Below, one piece after another: positions 11,222 to 17,456 of a stretch of 32,147 bases of DNA. Under the pieces are notes generated by a model. That model was not told the origin of the DNA and did not search any database. It was given only the letters and a program-made list of their open reading frames with translations. Each line of letters opens with the position of its first letter. The first letter of the stretch is position 1. Source of the stretch: Candidatus Zhuqueibacterota bacterium (GTDB lineage: Bacteria; Zhuqueibacterota; Zhuqueibacteria; Oceanimicrobiales; Oceanimicrobiaceae); contig JAJDAE010000200.1 in the NCBI GenBank assembly GCA_029262035.1, positions 1 to 32,147 on the forward strand, in the 5' to 3' direction. The translations under genes were made by a program, and so were the position numbers.

Positions 11222-14200
11222 ATGCAAAATTTGTTCAAATCTCGTATGGTAATCCGAAAGTATGTAGATTTCGGACTCAAATTCACAGCAACAAAAATCT
11301 TAACCATGGCTCTTATCCTGCCTATTGTGCTTGGCATAGCAACGTCTGCTAAAGCCCAATCCGACTTAATTATTTCGGGAGTGGTAGATGGACCATTATC
11401 GGGCGGCGTGCCAAAAGCTGTGGAATTGCTTGTTGTGAACAATATTGCTGATCTCAGCATTTACGGTTTTGGCTCGGCAAACAACGGTGGTGGCACCGAC
11501 GGAGAAGAACTCACTTTTCCAGCGGTAAGTGCCACAGCAGGTTCTTTCATTTATGTCGCTTCCGAAGCCACGGGATTCACCAGCTTTTTTGGTTTTGCAC
11601 CCGACTATACAAGTGGGGCAGCTGCCATAAATGGTGATGACGCTATTGAGCTCTTCCAAAACGGCAGTGTTGTTGATGTATTTGGCGACATTAATGTTGA
11701 TGGAAATGGTGAGCCTTGGGAATACCAGGACGGTTGGGCAAAAAGAGTAGACGCAACCGGACCCGATGGTACAACCTTTGTTCTGGCAAACTGGACATTC
11801 AGCGGGCCTAATGCATTGGATGGCGAAATCACCAATGCATCTGCAGCAACCCCGTTCCCTATTATTTTGCCCACAATCACAAACTTGGTTATTTCGGGAG
11901 TCATCGATGGGCCTCTTTCCGGCGGCACACCGAAAGCCATTGAGTTCTTTGTCGTAAATGATATCACCGACCTTAGTGCCTATGGTTTTGGTTCGGCAAA
12001 CAATGGCGGTGGAAGTGATGGTGAAGAATTTACTTTTCCGGCGGTCAACGCTGTAGCTGGCTCTTATATTTATGTAGCTTCAGAAGTTACGCAGTTTGGC
12101 AATTTCTTTGGTTTTGCGCCGGACTATACCAGTGGCACAGCCAGCATTAATGGCGATGATGCGATTGAGTTATTCCAGGACGGCGTTGTCGTGGATGTAT
12201 TTGGCGACATTAATGTAGATGGCAATGGCGAACCCTGGGAATACCAGGACGGTTGGGCAAAAAGAGTAGATGGCACTGGGCCAGATGGTTCAACATTTGC
12301 TCTGGGAAACTGGACTTTCAGTGGGCCGAACGCATTAGATGGCGAAACAACTAATGCAACTGCAGCCACACCTTTTCCATTGCCTGGGGCGCCAGGAAGT
12401 ACAGATTTACTCATTACCGGTGTAATCGATGGACCTCTCCCGGGAGGATTACCTAAAGCCGTTGAATTCCTGGTTCTGAATGACATAACCAATCTCAGCA
12501 TTTATGGATTTGGTTCAGCCAATAATGGTGGTGGCAGCGATGGCGAAGAATTTACTTTTCCAGCCGGAACCGCAACAGCTGGATCTTTTATCTACGTAGC
12601 CTCTGAAGCTACGGAGTTCGATAACTTTTTTGGTTTTGCACCGGATTATACCGGTGGCGCAGCAAACATAAATGGCGATGATGCCATCGAACTATTCCAA
12701 AATGGCGGCGTTGTTGATGTCTTTGGTGACATCAATGTTGATGGCAATGGGCAGCCGTGGGAATACCTCGACGGTTGGGCAAAAAGAGTAGACAGTACAG
12801 GCCCGGATGGCTCCACCTTTGTTCTGGCTAACTGGACTTTTAGCGGACCCAATGCTTTAGATGGAGAAACTTCAAATGCGACCGCCGCGACTCCCTTCCC
12901 AATGGCTGGTATTGATTTACTGATCACCGGTATTGTCGATGGGCCACTCTCAGGCGGCACTCCAAAGGCGGTTGAATTTTATGTTATCCAGAATATTAGC
13001 GACCTCAGCGTTTATGGTTTTGGCTCGGCAAACAACGGTGGCGGCACAGACGGTGAAGAGTTTACATTCCCGGCCGGAAGTGCAACTGCGGGCTCCTTCA
13101 TTTATGTAGCTTCAGAAGCAATCCAGTTCAATAATTTCTTTGGTTTTTCTCCCGACCACACCAGTTCCGCTGCCAACATAAATGGCGATGATGCTATTGA
13201 ATTATTCAAAGAAGGCGCAGTTGTAGACGTCTTCGGAGATATCAATGTCGATGGCAATGGTGAGCCCTGGGAATATCTGGACGGTTGGGCGAGTAGAATA
13301 TCCGGAACAGGGCCGGATGGCTCTACGTTCATTCTTGCCAACTGGACATTCAGCGGACCCAATGCTTTGGACGGAGAAACATCCAACGCCACAGCCACAA
13401 GTCCATTTCCACTCGGCACCTATTCTACAACTTCCCCCCCTGCGTTTGCTGAAATCTTCGAAATTCAGGGGTCTGGTTTAGTATCTCCATTCGAAAATTT
13501 AATTGTCACGACCGAAGACAATGTCGTTACCGGCGTTGCTCCCAACGGATTTTTTATACAAACCCCGACAGTACGCAGCGACAGTGATTCGGAAACTTCG
13601 GACGGTATTTTTGTTTTTACAGGCGGCGCACCCGCAGTGACCATTGGCGATCAAGTAGATGTTACCGGAACAATCGTGGAGTTCTTCGAATTGACTGAAA
13701 TCGGTAGCAGTCCAACCGTCAGCATCGATTTTTCTGGTGCAGCACTGCCAGCGCCAGTACTGCTAGATGGCAACACACCCTCACCGAACCAACCTCAACC
13801 TGCTAATGAGATGGAACGTTTTGAAGGTATGTTGGTCGAGATACTGGAAGGCTTTGCCACCGGAGCGACAGATCAATTTGGCGACGTTGCAGTGGTTGCC
13901 GGGTCAAGCAGAGCTTTTCGTGAGCCGGGAATTATCTTTCCGGGACTATCAGGCTTACCCATTTGGGATGGCAATCCCGAAATTTTTGAGATCAATCCCG
14001 ATGCGCTTGGGCTTCCTAACGAATCTGTTCCAGCAGGTGCTGAAGTTAGCGCGACCGGGCCCTTATCTTTCAGTTTTGGTGATTATCAAATTCACCCAAC
14101 AACATTTTCATTTAGTGGTGCAACTGAACCACGTCCGGTTCGCGACCGCATTGCCGGAGAGTTCACAGTTGCAACCCAAAACATGTTTCGACTTTTTGAA

Positions 14201-15805
14201 GGACAGTCTGATTTTGCCGATCGGGTGACCAAATTTTCCATGCAAATCCGGGATATTCTGGGAGCCCCAGACATCATAGCAGTGCAGGAGGTCGAAAACT
14301 TGAGCGCATTGCAAGCTCTGGCAAACAAAATTCAAACCGATGATGCAGGCATCGTATATATGCCATATTTGGTCGAGGGTAACGACGTCGGCGGTATTGA
14401 TGTTGGATTTCTCGTCCGTAATACGGTTCAAGTAAATGCGGTTACACAATTAGGCGCAAACGAAATTTTCTCTTTTGACAATTCTCTCCTACATGATCGA
14501 CCACCGTTATTACTTGTGGGTGAGTTTCTAGTTAGCGGGTCACCGGTTCCAATTAGTGTGCTTGGTCTCCACCAACGCTCATTAAGCGGAATAGAAGGGA
14601 GCCAATCAACCCGAATTCGACTGAAACGCCAAACTCAGGCAACATCTGTTTCGTTGATGGTAGATAGTCTGCAAACAGCAAACCCAAACATCAATCTTGT
14701 AGTCACCGGCGACTTTAATGCTTACCAGTTTACAGATGGCTATGCAGATGTTCTCGGGCAAATTATGGGGACACCGGCTGACAATACGCAGGCGCAATTA
14801 CCCGGGACCGACGAGGTTGCTCCTGATCTGAGCAATGAAATACTTTCACTTCCAACCGAAGAACAGTATTCTTTCGTTTTTCGAGGAAGTGCACAATCGC
14901 TTGATCACATGCTCGTTTCCGAGCTATTACAATCCAAAGTAAGCGGGATTGAGTACGCCAGAGGTAACGCTGATGTGCCCTCAACGCTCATCAATGACAA
15001 CAGCACGCCACTTCGGTCCTCGGACCACGACGGTCTCGTATTGTTTCTGGATTTGACGCCACCGGAAATAGTTGTGAATCCTGACCCGGCTCAACTCTGG
15101 CCGCCAAACCATAAGTATAACACTTTCAATATCTCAGATTTTGTAGTCTCGGTCAATGACAATGGTTCGTCAGACATTTCCCTGGATGACGTTTTCGTTA
15201 CTTCAGTGACCAGTGATGAACCTGAAAATGGCAGAGGTGATGGTAATACAACAAATGACATCGTTATTGTAGATTGCCAAACTGTAGATCTGAGAGCCGA
15301 AAGAGATGGTCGCGGAAACGGTCGCGTTTATACAATTCATCTGGCAGCAGAGGACTTAAGCGGAAATACCGGAACAGCATTATTCCAAGTACATGTGCCC
15401 AAAAATAAATCGAACAACTCTGCTATAGACGATGGCCCGGTTTATGAAGTACAAAGCGGTTGCAGCGCGCCAGAAACCCTTGCTAAATCAACCCAATCGA
15501 AAGTTGCTGAGTTGAATAACATTCCAACCGTGTTTATGCTTGAACAAAATTATCCAAATCCATTCAACCCGGAAACAGTAATTCATTTTAGTCTTCCGAA
15601 AGCTAGCTCAGTTGAAATAACGGTTTTCAATATGCTCGGGCAGAAGATTCAAAATCTGTCGAATACGCGGTATGAAGCCGGTATCCACAGCATTAGCTGG
15701 AATGGAAAAGACCAAAATGGAAATTTCGTTTCCAGTGGCATTTATCTTTATCAACTTCGGGCAGGTAATTTTCTGCAGGTAAAGAAGATGACATTGCTGA
15801 GATAA
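11222..15805 (+). CDS. Large secreted nuclease: four LTD-like repeats, OB-fold, EEP nuclease domain, C-terminal sorting tail
   Basis: 1527 residues, with GGAGGAG five bases before the ATG. A long signal peptide ends near ATSAKAQ (about 45). Four tandem repeats of about 170-174 residues follow (about 48-732), each like a lamin-tail/ExeM domain and each with DINVDGNG. Next comes an OB-fold region (about 738-975) and an endonuclease/exonuclease/phosphatase domain (about 976-1278) with its key residues in place: TQNMF, QEVEN, TGDFNAY, LDHML and SSDHDG. This is the organisation of secreted DNases such as ExeM, which degrade extracellular or biofilm DNA. A beta-sandwich domain (about 1280-1400) precedes the tail FMLEQNYPNPFNP...KKMTLLR (about 1438-1527), typical of type IX-like secretion and surface attachment in FCB bacteria. 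With the alkaline phosphatase downstream it suggests phosphate scavenging, though separate terminators imply separate transcripts. Confidence 0.9.
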   Translation: MQNLFKSRMVIRKYVDFGLKFTATKILTMALILPIVLGIATSAKAQSDLIISGVVDGPLSGGVPKAVELLVVNNIADLSIYGFGSANNGGGTDGEELTFPAVSATAGSFIYVASEATGFTSFFGFAPDYTSGAAAINGDDAIELFQNGSVVDVFGDINVDGNGEPWEYQDGWAKRVDATGPDGTTFVLANWTFSGPNALDGEITNASAATPFPIILPTITNLVISGVIDGPLSGGTPKAIEFFVVNDITDLSAYGFGSANNGGGSDGEEFTFPAVNAVAGSYIYVASEVTQFGNFFGFAPDYTSGTASINGDDAIELFQDGVVVDVFGDINVDGNGEPWEYQDGWAKRVDGTGPDGSTFALGNWTFSGPNALDGETTNATAATPFPLPGAPGSTDLLITGVIDGPLPGGLPKAVEFLVLNDITNLSIYGFGSANNGGGSDGEEFTFPAGTATAGSFIYVASEATEFDNFFGFAPDYTGGAANINGDDAIELFQNGGVVDVFGDINVDGNGQPWEYLDGWAKRVDSTGPDGSTFVLANWTFSGPNALDGETSNATAATPFPMAGIDLLITGIVDGPLSGGTPKAVEFYVIQNISDLSVYGFGSANNGGGTDGEEFTFPAGSATAGSFIYVASEAIQFNNFFGFSPDHTSSAANINGDDAIELFKEGAVVDVFGDINVDGNGEPWEYLDGWASRISGTGPDGSTFILANWTFSGPNALDGETSNATATSPFPLGTYSTTSPPAFAEIFEIQGSGLVSPFENLIVTTEDNVVTGVAPNGFFIQTPTVRSDSDSETSDGIFVFTGGAPAVTIGDQVDVTGTIVEFFELTEIGSSPTVSIDFSGAALPAPVLLDGNTPSPNQPQPANEMERFEGMLVEILEGFATGATDQFGDVAVVAGSSRAFREPGIIFPGLSGLPIWDGNPEIFEINPDALGLPNESVPAGAEVSATGPLSFSFGDYQIHPTTFSFSGATEPRPVRDRIAGEFTVATQNMFRLFEGQSDFADRVTKFSMQIRDILGAPDIIAVQEVENLSALQALANKIQTDDAGIVYMPYLVEGNDVGGIDVGFLVRNTVQVNAVTQLGANEIFSFDNSLLHDRPPLLLVGEFLVSGSPVPISVLGLHQRSLSGIEGSQSTRIRLKRQTQATSVSLMVDSLQTANPNINLVVTGDFNAYQFTDGYADVLGQIMGTPADNTQAQLPGTDEVAPDLSNEILSLPTEEQYSFVFRGSAQSLDHMLVSELLQSKVSGIEYARGNADVPSTLINDNSTPLRSSDHDGLVLFLDLTPPEIVVNPDPAQLWPPNHKYNTFNISDFVVSVNDNGSSDISLDDVFVTSVTSDEPENGRGDGNTTNDIVIVDCQTVDLRAERDGRGNGRVYTIHLAAEDLSGNTGTALFQVHVPKNKSNNSAIDDGPVYEVQSGCSAPETLAKSTQSKVAELNNIPTVFMLEQNYPNPFNPETVIHFSLPKASSVEITVFNMLGQKIQNLSNTRYEAGIHSISWNGKDQNGNFVSSGIYLYQLRAGNFLQVKKMTLLR
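11363..13419 (+). repeat. Four tandem coding repeats (about 510-522 bp each) in the secreted nuclease gene
   Basis: Units begin near 11363, 11882, 12404 and 12914 with DLIISGVVDG, NLVISGVIDG, DLLITGVIDG and DLLITGIVDG. Each carries YGFGSANNGGG, GDDAIELF, DVFGDINVDGNG and NWTFSGPNALDGE. Protein identity is much higher than DNA identity: synonymous codons differ freely. The copies are therefore old enough to have drifted, yet are held by selection. The acidic DINVDGNG stretch resembles a calcium-binding loop. Confidence 0.95.
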
Positions 15806-15846
15806 ACTAATTAATCTGGGTTGCATATATTTGACATCTAAATAAT

Positions 15847-15897
15847 TCCACCTGATGCTGGGTCGCTTATAACCTAGCTCAGGTGGATCTATTTTTA
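15847..15897 (+). terminator. Rho-independent terminator of the secreted nuclease gene
   Basis: TCCACCTGA (15847-15855) pairs perfectly with TCAGGTGGA (15879-15887); inside, GCTGGGT pairs with ACCTAGC through one wobble, leaving a short loop. It is followed by a run of T (TCTATTTTTA). It lies about 40 bases after the stop of the nuclease gene. Confidence 0.88.
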
Positions 15898-15975
15898 GCT
15901 TATATCATATTCGTTTTTAAAATGTCTCCTAATTATGAATAGTCCCCAAACGGATTCCTCCTTAACTAAACTAAA

Positions 15976-16123
15976 TTAGAGTTCTGCAAAATATGGGAAA
16001 AAAGGTGTCACCTCTGCGGATGCAGGAGTCTCTATGGTGAAAATAATTAGTGGTTTATGAGATCCCTGCATTCGCAGGTATGACCGCAAACTTTGAACAT
16101 TATGGTATTTTGCAGAACTCTAA
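15976..16123. mobile_element. MITE-like element with 18-bp perfect terminal inverted repeats and a 7-bp target duplication
   Basis: Ends are TTAGAGTTCTGCAAAATA (15976-15993) and its exact reverse complement (16106-16123). Both sides are flanked by AACTAAA (15969-15975 and 16124-16130), a 7-bp target site duplication. The 148-bp element codes for nothing. Inside is a second inverted pair, CTGCGGATGCAGG (about 16014-16026) and CCTGCATTCGCAGG (16065-16078), so the strand could fold into a long interrupted hairpin. The rest of the gap to the phosphatase gene (16131-16316) is AT-rich with no gene that I can support. The element is non-autonomous; its transposase must be elsewhere. Confidence 0.88.
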
Positions 16124-16316
16124 AACTAAATATTTTATATTATCGACAGAAGTGGTATATTCAGCTCCTTACTACGAATGATGGAACCATCCAACATGCT
16201 AATATGGAATTAAAATATCCGGCATTGCGCTAAGAAGCTGCTCAGGCTAATCTGCGGGTATAACTGGGGCGACACTTGCAATTATCAACCTAACTTTGAA
16301 AAGGCGAGTAGAAAAA

Positions 16317-17456
16317 ATGCATCTTAAAAACCAAATATTTCGAAACTATTTCACCTCAAACAAACAAAATGGTTTGTCGGAAATTTTCAGTAGATTTCTA
16401 TTTCTAAGTTTAGCACTATTTTTATCTTGTTCAACTCAGCCATCTAAACCTGAAAACATAATTCTTTTTATCGGAGACGGCATGGGGCTTTCACAAGTTA
16501 CAGCGGGGAGAATCGTAAAGGGCGAATTGAATCTCGACAAATTTCCTACATCCGGATTTGTAACCACCCACTCCTCAGACAATCTCATCACAGACTCCGC
16601 AGCCGCGATGACTGCAATGGCTACGGGCTATAAGTCCTACAACGGCGCTATTTCAGTCTCTCCAAATCGCGATACCCTCAAAACACTATTTGAATATGCC
16701 AAAGAAAAAGGAATGTCAATCGGACTGGTTGTAACCTGCACTGTGACTCATGCAACACCGGCGGCTTTAGTTTCACATGTGGACTCCCGGAATAAGCATA
16801 CTGAAATTGCCAAGCAAATCAGCGAAAATGATATTGATGTTCTTATGGGCGGCGGCAGATCATATTTTCTACCGGCAACTCATGACAGCAGCAAAAGAAA
16901 AGATGATTTGGATTTAATTGAAAAATTAAATCAAAAAATGAAAGTTGTTTACTCTACTGAAGAAATGTATAAAAATGAAAATACGCCGAAGCTGGCTGTA
17001 TTCCTGGCGAATGCCAACCCGCCAACCGCCACCAAAAGACCTTACGCTTTATCGGAACTTACAAGGGTAGCATTGAAGATTCTATCCCAAAATCCTAAAG
17101 GCTTCATTCTTCTGGTTGAAGGCTCTCAAATAGATTGGGGCGGCCATGATAATCTCCCAACTAAAATTATAAACGAAATGGTAGACTTTGATGATGCTAT
17201 TGGCACCGGGCTTGATTACTACAACAATAACCCGAACACTCTCATTGTTGTAACTGCCGACCATGAAACCGGCGGTTTTGCTATCCACGGCGGGTCAATT
17301 GCCGAACAAAAAGTTGACTCAACCAATTTTACCTGGACACATCATACCGCTACAATGGTTCCCATTTTCTCAAAGGGACCAGGCAAAAATGCTTTTAGCG
17401 GAATCATCGACAATACGGATATTGGCAAGACACTTAAAGATTACATCGTGAACTAA
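16317..17456 (+). CDS. Alkaline phosphatase (PhoA family), probably a lipoprotein
   Basis: From the ATG at 16317 the protein has 379 residues; a TTG at 16296 in frame would add seven residues without improving the signal. After a hydrophobic segment, LALFLSC followed by STQPSKP suggests lipid attachment at Cys, though the lipobox is loose. The alkaline phosphatase signatures are present in order: metal-binding FIGDGMG, the nucleophile Ser in TDSAAAMTAMATG, THATPAALVSHVDSR, metal-binding VEGSQIDWGGHDN, VVTADHETGGF and a final His in THHTATMVP. It hydrolyses phosphomonoesters in the periplasm or at the cell surface. It follows the secreted nuclease and would release phosphate from nucleotides freed by that enzyme. 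No PHO-box-like site was recognised upstream. Confidence 0.93.
   Translation: MHLKNQIFRNYFTSNKQNGLSEIFSRFLFLSLALFLSCSTQPSKPENIILFIGDGMGLSQVTAGRIVKGELNLDKFPTSGFVTTHSSDNLITDSAAAMTAMATGYKSYNGAISVSPNRDTLKTLFEYAKEKGMSIGLVVTCTVTHATPAALVSHVDSRNKHTEIAKQISENDIDVLMGGGRSYFLPATHDSSKRKDDLDLIEKLNQKMKVVYSTEEMYKNENTPKLAVFLANANPPTATKRPYALSELTRVALKILSQNPKGFILLVEGSQIDWGGHDNLPTKIINEMVDFDDAIGTGLDYYNNNPNTLIVVTADHETGGFAIHGGSIAEQKVDSTNFTWTHHTATMVPIFSKGPGKNAFSGIIDNTDIGKTLKDYIVN

Follow-up and report, generated by a model that had tools for sequence, protein, structure and literature searches.

A MITE with a REP-dimer interior in Candidatus Zhuqueibacterota and the insertion sequence group that shares its ends

Introduction

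Between the gene of a large secreted protein and an alkaline phosphatase gene, a genome of Candidatus Zhuqueibacterota carries a short sequence whose perfect inverted ends enclose a second, inner inverted pair. What is this element, what could move it and how did it come by its interior? The window, as we call the whole stretch of DNA analyzed (32,147 nucleotides), is contig C112 of genome G000, an assembly of 5.3 Mb in 372 contigs that is 96% complete. Here we describe the anatomy of the element, its copies in the same and in other genomes and the insertion sequences (IS) with which it shares its ends.

Anatomy of the element and its locus

The element is 146 bp long (Table 1), thus below 500 bp, and no open reading frame (ORF) of at least 80 aa is listed across 15977-16122. 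The sequence-only reading had described a 148-bp MITE with 18-bp perfect ends and a 7-bp target duplication, AACTAAA. Its classification as a MITE agrees with the dispersed copies, inverted ends (TIRs), target duplications (TSDs) and end-sharing IS group reported below; its measures needed correction. The perfect 18-bp pair exists (15976-15993 and 16106-16123), but the TIR proper is 17 bp, the outermost T/A of the 18-mer being assigned to the target because other ends have A, T or G at that position. The AACTAAA repeat is likewise present, but the full TSD is 9 bp. The TIRs of the window copy match IS ends of other genomes across 10-16 nt.

Table 1. Features of the element and of its immediate surroundings (positions in the window).
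Feature	Position	Strand	Description	Basis
MITE	15977..16122	.	146 bp	alignment of 8 same-genome copies
Left TSD	15968..15976	.	AAACTAAAT, 9 bp	direct repeat; register set by other copies
Right TSD	16123..16131	.	AAACTAAAT, 9 bp	direct repeat; register set by other copies
Left TIR	15977..15993	+	TAGAGTTCTGCAAAATA	perfect pair; aligned across 8 copies
Right TIR	16106..16122	-	17 bp	perfect pair; aligned across 8 copies
REP unit A	16006..16032	+	tag TGTC, stem ACCTCTGC/GCAGGAGT, loop GGAT, tail CTC	window sequence, 8-copy consensus, pairing counts, genome-wide unit count
Spacer	16033..16058	.	A+T-rich, 26 nt, REP unit A to unit B	
REP unit B	16059..16085	-	tag GGTC, stem ATACCTGC/GCAGGGAT, loop GAAT, tail CTC	window sequence, 8-copy consensus, pairing counts, genome-wide unit count
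Upstream neighbor	11222..15805	+	large secreted protein, Exo_endo_phos_3, FlgD_ig, Por_Secre_tail; stops 171 bp short of the MITE	
Downstream neighbor	16317..17456	+	alkaline phosphatase (PF00245); first in-frame ATG 194 bp past the MITE	

The upstream terminator that had been proposed is visible by eye as a long imperfect hairpin followed by TTTTT, but a consensus scan of 15780-16400 returned no terminator. A promoter pointing outward from the right end is unsupported (1 match against 2.4 expected). Besides an endonuclease/exonuclease/phosphatase domain and a Por secretion tail, the 1,527-aa protein encoded upstream has four N-terminal repeats that look similar by eye. The start of the alkaline phosphatase is ambiguous, the listed ORF opening at a TTG (16296) and an in-frame ATG lying at 16317.

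Copies in the same genome

A DNA search for further copies in the same genome recovered eight full-length copies, the window copy included, the seven others being 86-93% identical to it; the element is therefore not a chance arrangement. All eight are intergenic and none overlaps an ORF of at least 100 aa. Seven are flanked by TSDs of 8-11 bp, exact or with one mismatch (C112, 9 bp; C20, 8; C33, 8; C134, 9; C10, 11; C91, 10/11; C357, 8/9), and inspection of the flanks of the C182 copy revealed no recognizable TSD. Each copy carries 1-10 substitutions relative to the consensus, and those of C20 and C33 share 98.6% identity. With nine substitutions, two of them in one REP stem and one in the other, the window copy is not among the youngest, and the recent insertion first read from its perfect ends and duplication finds little support.

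The inner REP dimer

The interior is a head-to-head dimer of palindromes tagged TGTC with 8-bp stems, of which the eight elements of G000 hold 16. The consensus reads TGTC-ACTCCTGC-GGAT-GCAGGAGT-CTC, followed by the 26-nt spacer and an inversely oriented unit of the same type with another stem, ATACCTGC/GCAGGTAT, and again the tag TGTC. The inner inverted pair noticed in the window was correctly seen, its two units each having one or two broken stem positions relative to this consensus (compare Table 1).

The pairing was compared across 13 aligned MITEs, namely the eight copies of G000 and five of genome G022. Two separate hairpins keep 92.8% of their pairs, versus 81.5% for one long fold-back, in which three pairs are never formed in the 13 copies. 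Covariation is thin: a single compensatory pair was found in the separate hairpins, and shuffles matched the observed pairing percentage in 61 of 500 cases. The elements of both genomes have separate 8-bp stems, and each REP palindrome is predicted to be able to fold as a hairpin of its own.

Similar units also occur outside such elements. In G000, units of the same type and lacking a clear TIR lie on contigs C8, C229, C60, C181 and C256, with TIR-like words nearby in three cases (3 mismatches at C229, 4 at C8 and C256). In genome G015, a strict 8-bp-stem search over 391 kb, a sample chosen partly around earlier matches, listed 20 free head-to-head pairs tagged GTCA, some overlapping and none within a TIR pair. 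The same sample lists 12 TIR pairs, one of them a second pairing and some weak, whose palindromes failed the strict 8-bp test. Dimers and MITEs can therefore exist apart, and the resemblance of the inner pair to a widespread dispersed repeat, suggested from the window sequence, is borne out by the lone units of G000 and the free dimers of the same build in G015. In the latter genome, GTCA-tagged 8-bp-stem units and head-to-head dimers devoid of TIRs form clusters of up to 24 units per 20 kb, as at L378 (G015:C15:50000-69999), L368 and L377.

Had the element captured this repeat or derived from it, as the sequence-only reading left undecided? The REP kind inside the MITEs of G000 and G022 is the kind found free in G015; this favors acquisition of the dimer by capture or exchange, which seems likelier than derivation but is unproven, the near-constant offset of the REP from the end weighing the other way.

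The family across genomes

Matches to the element or its parts were obtained at E 0.01 in 12 of 60 genomes, and an exact 15-mer of the end in 10 of the 60, the own genome counting in both. Around exact ends, 29 loci were retrieved; in 24 of them an inverted partner lies a short distance away, and none was seen at L084, L088, L090, L092 and L109, the last lying at a contig edge. A scan of a species-genome collection with the exact 17-mer returned 63 stretches. Short-distance pairs come from MAGs named candidate division KSB1 or Calditrichia and from one named Desulfobacteraceae, and weaker ones from Omnitrophota and Armatimonadota. The same ends occur in a Calditrichia MAG and elsewhere in the class, including genomes filed under candidate division KSB1; the KSB1 label of the class rests on identical elements in titled records (L100/L195, L088/L142 and L087/L199).

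Sixty-six TIR-pair records were collected and 55, from 13 genomes or MAGs, were kept, including the weak L156 and L188 (Omnitrophota, Armatimonadota). The 11 dropped comprised three second pairings that reused a TIR of another record and eight pairs from Streptococcus, Bacilli and Nostocales loci, the latter attributed to chance. Two longer candidates were also discarded: a 723-bp element at G000:C276 proved to be two TIR-like words inside ordinary genes, and a 2,077-bp pair in L195 is actually two separate short elements.

The 55 elements measure 89-181 bp. At a threshold of 70% identity (the 99th percentile of shuffled comparisons is 63%), the interiors form 15 groups, and six multi-member groups cover 46 of the 55. 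Five divergent copies were found in G022, and G007, from the family of the window's genome, contributes seven of the 55 MITEs, mostly with TAGACTTCTGCAAAA ends. TSDs of 8 bp or more, one mismatch being allowed, flank 29 of 54 elements (one more being dropped at a contig edge); over 2,000 permutations of the flanks, the number averaged 0.84 and never exceeded 5.

Several members of the family display features of their own. Three REP-carrying MITEs lie almost head to tail, 1-10 bp apart, in L095 (G015:C19, 1197-1645), as if inserted serially. In G040 the right-hand REP has either a short loop (GGAGTCGAACC) or an extra palindromic loop insert (GGAGCGGTCCGCCGCTGCGGTCGAACC), the loci L251, L253, L255 and L258 contrasting with L065 and L259, and in G007 one REP arm is replaced between L226 and L229; REP hairpins seem to turn over within otherwise alike elements. 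Very similar 142-bp elements occupy different target sites in L194 (MVDB01000144.1, from a MAG named Desulfobacteraceae) and L177 (MZGM01000131.1, from one named KSB1), reflecting either horizontal transfer or a misbinned contig. Such ends lie beside REP-like hairpins in MAGs named for other groups as well (L138, L148, L151, L156 and L188), single-ended or with an imperfect second end.

Could the whole be a conserved regulatory RNA or terminator element instead of mobile DNA? Folding is indeed strong, the whole interior folding better than shuffles (z < -2) in 43 of the 55 elements, and the absence of ORF overlap at the eight own copies fits such a role. Against it, the target duplications differ in sequence from site to site, and no Rfam family was assigned, the one match having E 0.6 and 18.6 bits versus a gathering score of 130. 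We regard this explanation as very unlikely, though an inserted copy may yet have come to serve the host.

The REP-likeness of the interiors might also be coincidental, since any MITE interior would fold back on itself and hairpins are thus to be expected. Many interiors form one long palindrome and few pass two-hairpin tests: both halves reach z < -1.5 in only 13 of 55 elements, and a strict test demanding a 6-bp net hairpin in both halves was passed by 14 of 55, against 20 of 1,100 shuffles. The latter result is only moderately positive, as bulged or fold-back palindromes are common among the interiors. The G015 sample, in which free dimers and no element palindromes passed the strict 8-bp test, points the same way. 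On the other side stand the lone units of G000 and the free head-to-head dimers of G015, the separate 8-bp stems of the own and G022 elements, and the tags: a tag-like word occurs on both sides in 44 of 55 elements and GTCA on both sides in 24, by patterns written after inspecting the elements and counted with no chance control, the first such word mostly standing 26-40 nt inside the ends. Coincidence thus appears to us a very poor bet.

The partner insertion sequences

A transposase gene with the same ends, which the sequence-only reading had advised to look for, was found in a relative's genome and in those of distant bacteria (on both sides in G007, G416 and G414) but not in the own assembly. 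That reading had also proposed that the element would lose its standing if neither a second copy nor matching transposase ends turned up; both were found, the matching transposase outside the own assembly.

The IS of G007, at G007:C2, is 1,647 bp long and encodes a 438-aa transposase with DUF772 and DDE_Tnp_1 domains. Its ends are TAGACTTCTG on both sides, continuing as CAAAATAG on the right only, and it is flanked by a 10-bp duplication, ATGTCCAGCA. None of 20 shuffles of the locus yielded a 10/10 end pair together with a duplication of at least 9 bp. It is the only one of 22 DDE_Tnp_1 loci from six genomes that is bounded by MITE ends, and reading 30 further DUF772 loci gave no additional IS of this kind. 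Most genomes used are multi-contig assemblies, from which repeated IS copies may be missing.

Homologues identified by protein alone were then inspected for this end: two copies in G168 (66 and 69% identity) and one each in G155 (61%), G416 (46%) and G414 (44%). An end of the form AAGRCTYCTGC lies directly behind the transposase gene in all five. The G416 IS has it on both sides, as a 30-bp perfect TIR (AAGGCTTCTGCAAAATAG...) with a 10-bp duplication; that of G414, in which 435 aa matched, has it on both sides imperfectly and lacks a duplication. The other copies show the right end only, one of G168 being cut at the N-terminus and the other at a contig start, and that of G155 being a fragment with a stop. 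In G152 and G293, whose homologues are 35% identical, no such end was seen with up to 3 mismatches allowed. Because the five homologues at 44-69% identity keep the end and those at 35% do not show it, the AAGRCTYCTGC-type end seems to characterize this transposase group. End likeness within the superfamily is not exclusive, since the DUF772 genes of L272 (G026, 1238-2440) and L274 (G023, 775-1982) have GARACHTCTGAAAAATTG ends about 1.2 kb apart, similar but different, with a 6-bp repeat in L272; these loci were set apart as a neighboring IS group.

Among NCBIfam models, IS1182 (NF033551) is the best for the G007 transposase, below its cut-off: transposases of the group score 123.6, 90.1 and 35.4 bits against a cut-off of 270, and for that of G414 the IS5_4 model scores better than IS1182.

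Both G168 copies carry a REP-like unit, e.g. GTCATCGCGATGAGCGAAGCGAGGAAGCGATCTC, beginning 30 nt inside the end, the offset at which the MITEs carry their REP. Its tag is GTCA in one copy and TTCA in the other, it resembles the GTCATTGCGAGTGAGCATGCGAACGAAGCAATCTC units of Calditrichia MITEs and its predicted fold is weak (-6.1 and -6.7 kcal/mol). In 261 kb of G168, the unit pattern matched only the copy at the IS end; a pair of TIR-like words found there, each deviating at 3 positions, was put down to chance. No REP unit was seen near the ends read of the G007, G416, G414 and G155 copies.

The evidence leads us to consider it highly probable that the window feature is a non-autonomous MITE with a REP-dimer cargo, moved in trans by the transposase of this DUF772 + DDE_Tnp_1 IS group. 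An IS of the group, whose nearest curated model is IS1182, would supply the DDE transposase in trans; the enzyme would recognize the 17-bp ends and move the entire 146 bp, and insertion would duplicate 8-12 bp of an A+T-rich intergenic target. The cargo is the head-to-head dimer of CGTC/TGTC-type REP palindromes.

Another, unseen transposase with similar ends could instead mobilize the MITE, the IS group found here being merely a cousin. A protein search of the own assembly (96% complete, 372 contigs) gave no homologue of the G007 transposase; among 63 class genomes including the own, the full protein occurs only in G007, with weak partial matches in G022 and G031, and a scan of a plasmid collection found nothing. 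Moreover, the own TIR, TAGAGTTCTG, is to be set against TAGACTTCTG in the G007 IS, and the G026/G023 group illustrates how similar ends can serve a different IS, one with a 6-bp repeat. Yet ends matching those of the MITE are carried by six IS copies of the G007 group, and in the two where a duplication can be read it measures 10 bp, within the 8-12 bp range of the MITEs. We judge this alternative improbable. The own genome does contain another IS, L201 (G000:C358), in which ends CACTAGTGTCCGG and a 9-bp repeat TCCCATCAT surround a DDE_Tnp_1 gene; these ends are unrelated to those of the MITE.

Paired palindromes are also reported to spread as miniature mobile DNA in the REPIN/RAYT system, and the element might be a REPIN that a RAYT (Y1) transposase mobilizes, its outer TIRs being incidental. 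All six genomes tested have RAYT-type genes (PF01797), the own genome at five places, and the interior is a head-to-head REP dimer. However, the target duplications flank the TIR-bounded unit, the REP tag of the MITE is TGTC and not GTAG, and GTCA-tagged perfect 8-bp hairpins are found at none of the 12 RAYT loci read among 22 such places, against three for GTAG-tagged ones. Mobilization by RAYT was rejected and is in our opinion very unlikely. In contrast to a REPIN, the element lacks the GTAG tag, has TIRs with target duplications and points to a DDE instead of a Y1 transposase. RAYT-type genes lie near GTAG-tagged hairpins in L301 (G040:C192), L298 (G000:C48) and L300 (G022:C71); L301 presents two such hairpins in opposite orientation, resembling a REPtron.

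Comparison with known systems

The nearest described element that we found, and a close precedent judging from the parts of the report consulted, is QMITE2 of Coxiella burnetii, a MITE of 150-190 bp with direct repeats of 7-11 nt of variable sequence and a REP palindrome inside (PMC5896051). According to the same parts, QMITE2 is mostly intergenic or in 3' untranslated regions and its small copies resemble plain REPs (PMC5896051); a review, in the portion seen, agrees that this MITE holds a GTAG REP (PMC10969869). QMITE2 differs in its GTAG-type REP, its TIRs of 23-29 nt (as given in table rows) and a parent transposase that is unnamed in the sections available (PMC5896051), whereas the element described here has CGTC/TGTC-type head-to-head dimers, 17-bp TIRs, many different dimers within a single type of TIR and an IS group sharing those ends.

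The REP units themselves recall the CGTC-1 class, defined, in the sections consulted of the survey by Di Nocera and colleagues, by an 8-bp stem, a 4-nt loop, a CGTC tag that often reads TGTC instead and head-to-head dimers (PMC3733652). The survey counts dRS3 and RPE-6 within CGTC-1, describes, for H. neapolitanus, 41-bp palindromes that contain CGTC dimers and, in those sections, reports no dedicated transposase for CGTC REPs (PMC3733652). The element shares the TGTC tag, the 8-bp stem, the 4-nt loop, a 3-nt tail and the head-to-head arrangement, and both consensus units agree with the CGTC-1 pattern of a CGTC, TGTC or CCTC tag, 8-bp stem and 4-nt loop. The first two stem positions are AT in unit B and AC/GT in unit A, compared with A-T 'almost invariably' in CGTC-1, and both units have the tail CTC, while most, though not all, CGTC-1 tails fit CCA in the text seen (PMC3733652). 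We therefore name the units 'CGTC/TGTC type' and not CGTC-1 members, as their tail CTC does not fit CCA.

On the transposase side, IS1182 is the best model for the G007 and G168 enzymes, that of G007 having DUF772 and DDE_Tnp_1; the partner IS differ in scoring far under the curated cut-off and in their 10-bp duplications, whereas IS1272, a family member cited in PMC5678879, replaces stem-loops. A limited literature search, covering few subscription journals, found no description of TIR-bounded CGTC REP dimers with a transposase; in PMC12306157 and PMC6006769, CGTC appears in the reference lists only.

Evolution and significance of the REP cargo

Throughout the class, the same ends enclose dimers of several unlike REP sequences, mostly starting 27-40 nt inside. 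That REPs stand at a near-constant offset from the end speaks for an ancient common architecture. The most economical reading would be one such architecture in which REPs of the host genome, time and again, took the place of the palindromes or were swapped with them. Riding in a MITE would give a spreading route to a REP type for which no dedicated transposase has been described.

A wider scheme is conceivable, and we hold it to be rather doubtful: CGTC-type head-to-head dimers, in these phyla and perhaps generally, might spread as the inner part of DDE-transposon ends. An IS would carry a REP about 30 nt inside its end, as seen in G168, a TIR-REP-REP-TIR MITE would arise when two such ends are joined, and free dimers like dRS3 or RPE would be what is left once the TIRs are lost. 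If true, the 'transposase-less' CGTC REPs would gain their missing mobilizer.

The family joins features of QMITE2 and of CGTC REPs, combining dimers of CGTC type with TIRs, target duplications and a transposase group that shares the ends. CGTC-type palindromes occur in many bacteria, and what moves them was left open in the sections seen of the survey that defined them (PMC3733652). With one kind of ends, target duplications and a candidate transposase group around unlike dimers of CGTC build, that question becomes testable at the bench, where the experiment would have a named enzyme and a 17-bp substrate.
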